Origin: Armatimonadetes bacterium Uphvl-Ar1
GTDB lineage: Bacteria > Armatimonadota > Fimbriimonadia > Fimbriimonadales > Fimbriimonadaceae
Direction: 5' to 3'
Assembly (NCBI GenBank): GCA_002162075.1
Contig: CP021423.1
Location: 2,666,001 to 2,730,000, forward strand
DNA length: 64,000 nt
This document shows, one piece after another, positions 61,093-63,894 of this stretch. The notes under the pieces are model-generated. The model had not been told where the DNA came from. It was given only the letters and a program-made list of their open reading frames with translations, and made no database searches. The translations under genes were made by a program, and so were the position numbers. The stretch's first letter is position 1, and each line of letters starts with the position of its first letter.

Positions 61093-62184
61093 ATGAGCTT
61101 GCCTTACGATCGCGTTTACAACTTCTCGGCGGGTCCGGGAGTGATCCCGGTTCCGGTTTTGGAAGAAGCCCGAGACAATATGTTGAATTGGAAGGGTTCG
61201 GGAGTTGGGGTGATGGAGATGAGTCACCGGGGCAAGCATTATGAGAAAATCGCGGCGGCAGCCGATGCGGATTGCCGAGAGTTTTTGGGAGTTCCTGACA
61301 ACTACAAAGTGTTGTACCTGCAAGGTGGGGCGAGTCTGCAGTTCACGATGCTGGCAATGAACTTTTTGAATGGAGGTTCAGCGGATTACTTGCGGACTGG
61401 GACATGGGGCGAGAAAGCGGTTTCGGCGGGGAAATTGCATGGGACGGTGCACTTGGCCCACGATGCAAAGGGGTCGAATTATGATGTCGCCGGCTATGAT
61501 TTGGCGACCTATTCGGATGAAGCGAAGTTTGTGCATTTCACAATGAACGAGACAATTCAGGGTGTGGACTTTTTGGGTGATCCTCCGGCGGATGGTCGGG
61601 ATTGGATTTGCGATATGAGTTCTTGTATTGGGAGTCGCCCGTTTGATGTCAGCCGGTACGCGATGATTTATGCGGGTGCGCAAAAGAATATGGGGCCGAG
61701 CGGGGTGGCCTTGGTTTTGCTGCGAGAGGATTTGCTGGAGCGGATTCCGGAGGGTTTGCCGCCGATGCTGGACTACAAGGTTATGGTGGAAAACGAATGG
61801 ATGTACAACACACCGAATACGTGGGGGGCTTATGTGATGAGCCTGGTTTTCCGGCATTGGATTGATTTTGGTGGGCTCGAGGCGGTCGGTCGCTACAACG
61901 ATGAAAAAGCGGGGCATATTTATTCGGCAATTGATGAGTCTGGTGGGTTCTTTAAGGTTCATGCTCAGCCGCAAAATCGGTCGCGTATGAATATTTCGTT
62001 TACTCTGCCGGATGAAGATTTGACGACGAAATTTTTGGCGGAGTCGAAGGCGGCAGGTTTCCATGAGTTGAAAGGTCACCGCTCAGTTGGTGGATGTCGA
62101 GCGAGTATTTACAATGCCTTTCCGGCGGAAGGGTGTGTTGCTTTGGGCGGGTTTATGCGTGAGTTCGCGTCGGCGAATGGGTAG
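61093..62184 (+). CDS. serC: Phosphoserine aminotransferase
   Basis: A 363-residue PLP enzyme making phosphoserine (serine synthesis, also the PLP pathway). It starts YNFSAGPGVIPVPVLEEARD with GVGVMEMSHRGKHYEKI. VLYLQGGASLQFTMLAMNF follows. The Schiff-base Lys is in YAGAQKNMGPSG. The end reads GGCRASIYNAFPAEGCVALG and FMREFASANG. Length is standard, so the gene is complete. Degenerate second and third copies of its 3' end follow downstream. Confidence 0.96.
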   Translation: MSLPYDRVYNFSAGPGVIPVPVLEEARDNMLNWKGSGVGVMEMSHRGKHYEKIAAAADADCREFLGVPDNYKVLYLQGGASLQFTMLAMNFLNGGSADYLRTGTWGEKAVSAGKLHGTVHLAHDAKGSNYDVAGYDLATYSDEAKFVHFTMNETIQGVDFLGDPPADGRDWICDMSSCIGSRPFDVSRYAMIYAGAQKNMGPSGVALVLLREDLLERIPEGLPPMLDYKVMVENEWMYNTPNTWGAYVMSLVFRHWIDFGGLEAVGRYNDEKAGHIYSAIDESGGFFKVHAQPQNRSRMNISFTLPDEDLTTKFLAESKAAGFHELKGHRSVGGCRASIYNAFPAEGCVALGGFMREFASANG

Positions 62185-62235
62185 GTGACCTTTCCCCTCC
62201 CTCAATCCCTCCCCAGAGGGGAGGGAAGTTCGCTC
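62185..62235 (+). repeat. serC 3' UTR unit, copy 1 (CT-rich hairpin)
   Basis: Begins directly after the serC stop. CCCTCCCC (62207-62214) pairs with GGGGAGGG (62218-62225) across 3 nt. The 51-bp unit recurs at 62431-62481 with 45 of 51 identical bases. It could act as terminator, although no T-run follows. Confidence 0.75.
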
Positions 62236-62241
62236 GATTAG

Positions 62242-62334
62242 GGCTGTCGGGCGAGTATTTATAATGCTTTTCCGGCGGAGGGGTGTGTTGCTTTAGGTGG
62301 GTTTATGCGTGAGTTTGCGAAAATGAGTAAATAG
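62242..62334 (+). pseudogene. Relic second copy of the serC 3' end
   Basis: Positions 62242-62319 match 62092-62169 inside serC at 70 of 78 bases. All eight differences are synonymous in the serC frame (Gly, Arg, Tyr, Ala, Glu, Leu, Gly and Phe codons). The copy then reads KMSK and stop at 62334, a different tail from serC's own SANG. It has no upstream coding sequence. The substitution pattern shows that the copy came from a serC that had diverged under selection. Confidence 0.85.
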
Positions 62335-62360
62335 TTCCTTCTTAATCAACCCCACCCCTG

Positions 62361-62389
62361 CCCCTCCCCAAACGTGGGGAGGGGATTTT
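62361..62389 (+). terminator. GC-rich hairpin downstream of the serC relic
   Basis: CCCCTCCCC (62361-62369) pairs perfectly with GGGGAGGGG (62376-62384) and is followed by ATTTT. It looks like the terminator that once belonged to the second serC tail. Confidence 0.6.
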
Positions 62390-62401
62390 CCGCCAGTATG
62401 A

Positions 62402-62433
62402 TTTATGCGTGAGTTTGCCGGTTCAAACGGGTG
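62402..62433 (+). pseudogene. Relic third copy of the last codons of serC
   Basis: TTTATGCGTGAGTTTGC followed by codons for GSNG and a TGA stop. It corresponds to FMREFASANG of serC. Only about ten codons remain. Confidence 0.65.
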
Positions 62434-62481
62434 ACCGTTCCCCTCCCTCTTTCCCTCCCCAGCAGGAAGGGAAGTTCGCTC
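62431..62481 (+). repeat. serC 3' UTR unit, copy 2
   Basis: Matches 62185-62235 at 45 of 51 positions, starting GTGACC and ending AAGTTCGCTC, without length change. It follows the third serC tail exactly as copy 1 follows the true serC stop. Confidence 0.75.
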
Positions 62482-62747
62482 ACAATGTCAATCACCCAGA
62501 ATCAAGGGCCTACCTTGCCTCAATCTTTCCACACTCCGGAGGGAAAAACTGACCCCAGAGGCTGATCTAGAGTTTCTGGAACTCAAGGTGAAAAAGCAAT
62601 CTCTGATTTGCCAACGGATTAAGTCTGAGGCATGCTTTCCCCAAATGGAAGCAAGGCTCGATTGTTTAGGTTGAGACATGTGAGTTTACAAGTTCAGACT
62701 GATCTCCGATTCAGTGTCGGAATGCTGATTGATTGATCGGGGTGTGA
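62482..62747. other. Intergenic stretch without a convincing gene
   Basis: This completes a 577-bp gap between serC and the acyltransferase. A plus-strand frame around 62525-62673 reads like a helical protein remnant (LRREKLTPEADLEFLELKVK) with no start. A 63-codon minus-strand frame (62488-62679) lacks support. I see no RNA gene. Confidence 0.4.
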
Positions 62748-62753
62748 TATTCT
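62748..62753 (+). promoter_or_regulatory. Candidate -10 box for the acyltransferase gene
   Basis: TATTCT, then 8 nt of C-rich sequence, then ATG 62762. No Shine-Dalgarno motif is present. Confidence 0.4.
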
Positions 62754-62761
62754 CGCCCCCT

Positions 62762-63894
62762 ATGGGTGGAACCACGCAATCAAGTGAGCTTATCCGCCCG
62801 CTCGCGGGATTTCGTGCGATTGCTGCTTTGTGGGTTGTGGTGGTTCATACGGAGAGCCTGCATCCTGGGAACATCCCGGAATCGGCACAGATGTTTCTGC
62901 GGGGGTACGGAACACTTCCGGTTGTGTTCTTTTTTGTCCTATCGGGGTTTATCCTTAGTCTTGTTTATTCTGAGCGCATTGGCGAATCCGGATTTCAACC
63001 GAATGAACTCAAGACGTACGCTTGGGCAAGGATTGCTCGGGTTGTCCCTCTTTACTTTTTCACATTGATTGTTCCGATCGGGTTTCACATAGCATGGACA
63101 AATCGGGGGGGAACCGTTCCGATGCCTTTCACCGAACACACTGTGATAGGATCGCTTGGGTTTTCGACGGATGGATGGGCATTTAATTCGCTTTTCCGGA
63201 GCAATGTTCCCGCTTGGACATTGACGGCGGAATTGATTTTTACTCTCTTTTTCCATTTATCTTTCCTCGGATTGCTCGGCAAGACCGAACCACTTTGCTT
63301 CGGGGCCTCTACTTCTCGATGGGTACCTATGGGGTCATCCAGTTGGGTTTGGGGATAGCTCAGATTTATGGAGATGACTGGTGGAGACCGGTGGGATATG
63401 GCTTGGGTCACTTTGGTCCGCCGCTGTTTGTGCCCGTTTTTCTGGTTGGAATCTATATGGGAGTTCTCGCGCGCAGAGGGGGGCTGTCGAAATGGACTGA
63501 AACCCACGCTGATGCGATCTATGCGGCCTTTATGATTGGAGTTGTGCTGCTGGTAACTCTGCCTACTCCTCCGCTCCCTCCGTCCCTTGTGACTGCGTTG
63601 CTTTGCCCATTAATTTGCCTTTCGATTGTTGCCGGGCATGGTCAAATGGGGTTAACGAACCGGGTTCTTTCTTGGCCAGTGGTTCAGCTTTTTGGTTCAG
63701 CCAGCTACGCGATATACATCACTCATTGGCCGGTCAAGGAGCTTTTGCAGTTCTACTTCCACCCTAAAGGTTGGCCCGAATTTTCGAAGGGCTTTGTTGT
63801 TCTGGGGATTGTCATTGTGGTAGGGCTTGTTTGTCATTTCTGGGTGGAGAAGCCACTCTACCGATGGGTGCGTCGGATGTCGGGGGTCGGTTAA
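62762..63894 (+). pseudogene. Acyltransferase 3 family (OafA-like) gene with one frameshift
   Basis: Two overlapping frames (62729-63358 and 63214-63894) make one polytopic O-acyltransferase. The first part has the family start IRPLAGFRAIAALWVVVVHT (catalytic His after the first helix), FFVLSGFILSLVY and ARIARVVPLY. The second part continues the helices (FGPPLFVPVFLVGIYMGVLA) and ends with FGSASYAIYITHWPVKELL and a terminal WVEKPLYRWVRR. Adding one G to the run at 63302-63305 joins them as LCFGGLYFSMGTYGV. Such enzymes acetylate O-antigen, peptidoglycan or exopolysaccharide. Its stop interlocks with the convergent permease gene (TTAA). Confidence 0.85.

Follow-up and report, generated by a model that had tools for sequence, protein, structure and literature searches.

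Integrative elements that target the 3' ends of protein-coding genes restore those ends with synonymous versions, as lambdoid phages do at icd. Displacement scars are described mainly at toxin/immunity loci under diversifying selection: for the C-terminal tips of Rhs proteins, displacement with a circular intermediate has been proposed (Jackson et al. 2009, PMC2935791), and effector displacement by the same logic has been proposed for the immunity-gene arrays of the Vibrio T6SS (Kirchberger et al. 2017, PMC5361080). Homology-facilitated illegitimate recombination has been proposed to account for variable segments in E. coli (PMC2884548).

An array of partial gene ends follows serC in Armatimonadetes bacterium Uphvl-Ar1 (G000), an uncultured Fimbriimonadaceae species of the Armatimonadota whose nearest relatives with named records are also Fimbriimonadaceae. 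The genome is one closed contig of 2.985 Mb, and the window, the whole stretch of 64,000 nucleotides that was analyzed, spans C1:2666001-2730000. It contains an intact serC, and the parts of the locus are as follows, in window coordinates.

61093-62184, + strand: serC (phosphoserine aminotransferase), 363 aa, tip SANG; an open reading frame with an Aminotran_5 match and 97% to SerC of the sister species G006
62092-62169, + strand: copy 1, the 78-bp stretch of serC with a repeat downstream (repeat search)
62184-62235, + strand: UTR unit after the present serC stop, which includes a dispersed GC palindrome (repeat search, genome matches, folding)
62242-62334, + strand: copy 2, the repeat of those 78 bp (8 differences, all synonymous), followed by KMSK and a stop (repeat search, codon comparison)
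62345-62391, + strand: hairpin B, one of the dispersed GC palindromes, located between copies 2 and 3; folding energy ∼-22 kcal/mol (genome matches, folding)
62402-62434, + strand: copy 3, a 17-bp remnant of the serC body that runs into GSNG and a stop (repeat search)
62430-62481, + strand: second UTR unit, 88% identical to 62184-62235, with a decayed hairpin (repeat search, folding)
62653-63894, + strand: right flank common to G006, with an acyltransferase gene (Acyl_transf_3 in G006; blastn, domain match)

The sequence-only reading had described a 78-bp match at an offset of 150, a third tail with a second UTR unit, and three different tips each with its own stop, and all of these are present as it placed them. 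A repeat search pairs 62092-62169 with 62242-62319 (78 nt, 90%, spacing 150; 70/78 positions identical, with 8/8 differences at synonymous third positions) and 62184-62235 with 62430-62481 (52 nt, 88%, spacing 246). The 17-mer TTTATGCGTGAGTTTGC occurs at 62302 and 62402, with a 16/17 match at 62152. The present end of serC reads EFA-SANG with a TAG stop (62182-62184), copy 2 reads EFA-KMSK, also with TAG (62332-62334), and copy 3 reads EFA-GSNG with TGA (62432-62434). The copies are spaced by only 66-83 bp, and the downstream junctions of the array are abrupt. Copies 2 and 3 have different truncation points and different hairpins, and thus derive from separate events. Within the assembly the array is genuine, and it is exceptional in the part of the genome that was sampled: when the last 90 nt of each of 396 genes, from a 400-kb genome sample and the window, were compared with the 500 nt that follow, the score was 57.5 for serC and 18.5 for the second-best real pair, and permuted tail/downstream pairs all scored <13. 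Early matches of the gene-tail scan that turned out to be paralogous neighbors or low-complexity stretches were discarded; the scan also took in samples of ∼400-480 kb from G006 and G003.

Like integrative elements such as the lambdoid phages at icd, the serC locus would have had its 3' end replaced by a synonymous version and the old end displaced, but no element, integrase, or attP was found there. As at Rhs loci (PMC2935791), the gene body is conserved and the 3' tip would have been exchanged, with former tips, each attached to a body piece of variable length, lying in order downstream; however, serC codes for a housekeeping enzyme with tips of four residues, and its body pieces differ synonymously, in contrast to rhs cores at one locus, which are reported to be identical (PMC2935791). 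The resemblance to the T6SS arrays (PMC5361080) would lie in upstream anchor homology, illegitimate joining downstream, and older pieces pushed downstream, although those arrays keep whole immunity genes, probably under selection, and serC is followed only by dead stubs. Dimorphic variable segments and homology-facilitated illegitimate recombination (PMC2884548, PMC3240628) would match it in having one homologous and one illegitimate end, and the former are short and lie beside conserved genes; they are described for replaced segments, however, and serial stubs of old ends as at serC are not the usual outcome.

We favor, with a probability of about 0.55, a history in which the 3' end of serC was displaced serially by homology-facilitated illegitimate recombination and the array is the resulting scar. 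On one side, incoming DNA from a relative would pair with homologous serC sequence; on the other, it would be joined illegitimately within the resident tail. The gene would thereby have its 3' end, tip, and UTR hairpin renewed, while the truncated old end persists downstream as a dead stub. The oldest resident end would then be copy 3 (GSNG), followed by copy 2 (KMSK), with the present end (SANG) the latest to arrive, and the GC hairpins after the stop may favor junctions; the one-sided joining, this succession, and the part played by the hairpins are our inference. The sequence-only reading had proposed that the serC end was partly replaced more than once, each time with the old tail remaining, and that copy 2 comes from a serC allele under selection rather than from a drifting tandem duplicate; the former is the best-fitting mechanism, and the latter is most likely, with all changes in copy 2 being synonymous.

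Until recently, copy 2 probably formed the end of a functional serC, as its private changes are all synonymous and its divergence is like that of a sister species; that it once belonged to a functional allele is fairly secure. Copies 1 and 2 differ at 8 positions per 78 bp, copy 1 and G006 serC at 9, and copy 2 and G006 serC at 11, with every difference among the three falling at a third position; the distance of copy 2 to G006 serC (11/78) is therefore about that between the two living genes (9/78). Four changes are private to copy 2 and two to copy 1, and two further sites are three-state. A random mutation in the 78-bp stretch is synonymous with a probability of ∼0.26 (kappa 2), and the chance that all changes would be synonymous under neutrality is P ∼0.004 for 4 changes and 0.0003 for 6, the 4 to 6 changes being all that these statistics rest on; copy 3 is too short for the same test. 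In contrast, drifting relic tails of an enoyl-CoA hydratase gene have synonymous/non-synonymous counts of 2/15 in G007 and 2/13 in Uphvl-Ar1, although the Fisher values for copy 2 against these relics (4e-5 and 9e-5) overstate the contrast because the relic changes are partly shared and not independent. Displacement would leave an old end of independent allelic origin downstream of an intact gene, and copy 2 answers to this description. Translation of copy 2 on its own at present was considered and rejected: an in-frame TAG (62239-62241) lies immediately 5' of it, and its first ATG/GTG/TTG is codon 22, an ATG near the end.

The same boundary is altered in the sister species, in agreement with the earlier suggestion that the serC 3' end is prone to recombination. 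Identity between G006 and Uphvl-Ar1 DNA is ∼91% on both sides, to position 62173 on the left and from 62653 to beyond the start of the acyltransferase gene, which it spans, on the right, and blastn detects nothing common to the two genomes between these points. In G006, SerC has a different tip (AGRS), and its stop overlaps the start of an inserted accessory gene of 437 aa with CBS and DUF7662 domains (L065:3317-4630; C1:768316-769626 of G006). A search of the other 84 family genomes gave no match to this gene, and its only PADLOC match, to a CARF-HEPN model, is weak (E 0.01). The Uphvl-Ar1 array and the G006 insertion both start in the last serC codons. SerC tips in the genus usually end in NG, and KMSK and AGRS are therefore departures. 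In G003, G004, G005, and G007 the locus reads as serC followed by the same acyltransferase gene with a shorter gap. None of the six genus relatives with a SerC match has convincing relic serC tails, and the array itself was found in no relative examined; since the insert is likewise found only in G006, both are lineage-specific. G001, of the same genus, has no SerC match although it is listed as 99% complete. Relative to G006, the acyltransferase gene is broken into two frames by the loss of 1 nt from a run of T at window position 63237; this loss is either a sequencing error or a real frameshift.

The hairpins of the array are not peculiar to serC. What the sequence-only reading called a UTR unit is a real repeat, and the two units are homologous to each other, but it is not purely serC UTR: its inner part (∼62189-62225), like the hairpin between copies 2 and 3, is a GC-rich palindrome dispersed in Uphvl-Ar1 and its relatives, and the outer parts (GGTGACC and most of GTTCGCTC) lie outside most dispersed-palindrome matches. 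Folding gives -21.2 kcal/mol for the copy 1 hairpin (z -1.2), -22.4 for hairpin B (z -2.2), and -14.1 for the copy 3 hairpin (z -0.1); the decay of the last fits with copy 3 being the oldest, although this is weak evidence by itself. A scan for terminator-like structures is uninformative, with 4 matches against 1.0 (sd 1.4) in shuffles, 3 of the 4 being in the serC repeats or junctions. Palindromes are not generally flanked by direct repeats; only 2/31 sampled sites, excluding serC and the hydratase array, exceed 99% of the null, and the direct repeats at these two are themselves palindrome-like.

Hairpins and gene-end duplication can go together elsewhere in the genus. The enoyl-CoA hydratase tail is duplicated beside hairpins in both Uphvl-Ar1 and G007, and these relics look like local tandem duplication with drift. 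In G007 (C286, L168), tandem units of ∼108 bp, each with the last codons and a GC palindrome, lie 3' of the hydratase gene, and the last unit is without a stop. A 5' end is duplicated in Uphvl-Ar1 at C1:313.9-314.5 kb (L176:1924-2513), where 118-bp tandem units carry the gene's 5' end and a palindrome; the relic starts (MTQPL.., MTPPL.., and MTSPL..) are in frame, and the start of the gene itself, presumably a kynureninase gene, appears one C short. In G003 (L146:5700-6010), a gene tail with its hairpin is duplicated once, ∼80 bp downstream of the stop. Palindromes or hairpins at such gene-end duplications may fix the junctions, but the association is not a general one, given the 2/31 palindrome sites noted above.

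These hairpin-linked duplications are the source of the main rival to displacement, namely that slippage or template switching assisted by the hairpins duplicated the serC tail and hairpin in tandem, followed by drift and perhaps by conversion by other serC alleles. Precedents at the G007 hydratase, at C1:313.9-314.5 kb of Uphvl-Ar1, and in G003, in each of which a gene end and palindrome form the unit, make this a possible if rather unlikely history, as does the homology of the two serC UTR units, but a simple duplicate is expected to change at all codon positions. Copy 2 has 0/8 non-synonymous differences, with its own 4 to 6 changes all synonymous at the P values given above, and neither the hairpins after copies 1 and 2 nor the truncation points agree. 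Displacement has its own difficulties: the codon statistics draw on few changes, a mosaic boundary was sought inside serC and none is visible, so the seamless side of the junction is not locatable, and at other loci of the genus the gene ends duplicated next to hairpins have the look of ordinary tandem duplications. No remnant of an older tail lies behind the G006 insertion, and there is no donor allele or intermediate among the 8 genus genomes compared, a weak absence with one genome per species.

Two further explanations are less probable. Elements carrying a replacement serC 3' end may have integrated site-specifically and then been lost, leaving attachment-site remnants; this accords with the synonymous restoration known for elements at 3' gene ends, with the identity of the 17-bp block in copies 2 and 3, and with the accessory gene positioned exactly at the serC boundary in G006. 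It is unlikely, however, and the earlier proposal of an integration site, taken in the site-specific sense, is not supported: no further copy of the serC tail is present in the Uphvl-Ar1 genome, no degenerate one was found in viral contigs, the nearest of 7 integrase-family genes is ∼176 kb from serC, 0/6 relatives have relic tails, the G006 insertion consists of one gene with no repeat of the serC end, and the space between copies is no greater than 66-83 bp. Thirteen viral-contig matches to the 17-mer were set aside, their upstream translations being unlike SerC. That an assembler joined two strain haplotypes is very improbable; the relatives are largely metagenome assemblies, copy 2 resembles the allele of another strain, and the 1-nt acyltransferase deletion suggests imperfect sequence, but the genome is closed in one contig, and a haplotype join gives no structure with three tails, different truncations, and different hairpins. 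Homopolymer indels also hint at long reads, which would presumably span the 400 bp.

As what is probably a small scar of a known kind of recombination, the serC array is of modest novelty. If displacement is the correct reading, a housekeeping gene as its site suggests that the process also acts where there is no obvious gain, and the codon-position pattern in a stub separates an imported end from a duplicated one. If the link to hairpins is true, past recombination would be countable from single genomes of uncultured bacteria. A broader idea, which we regard as doubtful, is that throughout the genus the GC palindromes beside gene ends are preferred end points for incoming homologous DNA, with alleles of ordinary genes swapped end by end and old ends, whether 3' or 5', piling up beside hairpins as a record of allele exchange.

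A check for REP/RAYT systems finds Y1_Tnp genes in Uphvl-Ar1, G003, and G005 and a fragment in G007, with none in the palindrome-rich G006. The Uphvl-Ar1 genome, in which GC palindromes are many, has two Y1-transposase (RAYT-type) genes, at C1:447815-448150 and 959031-959282.
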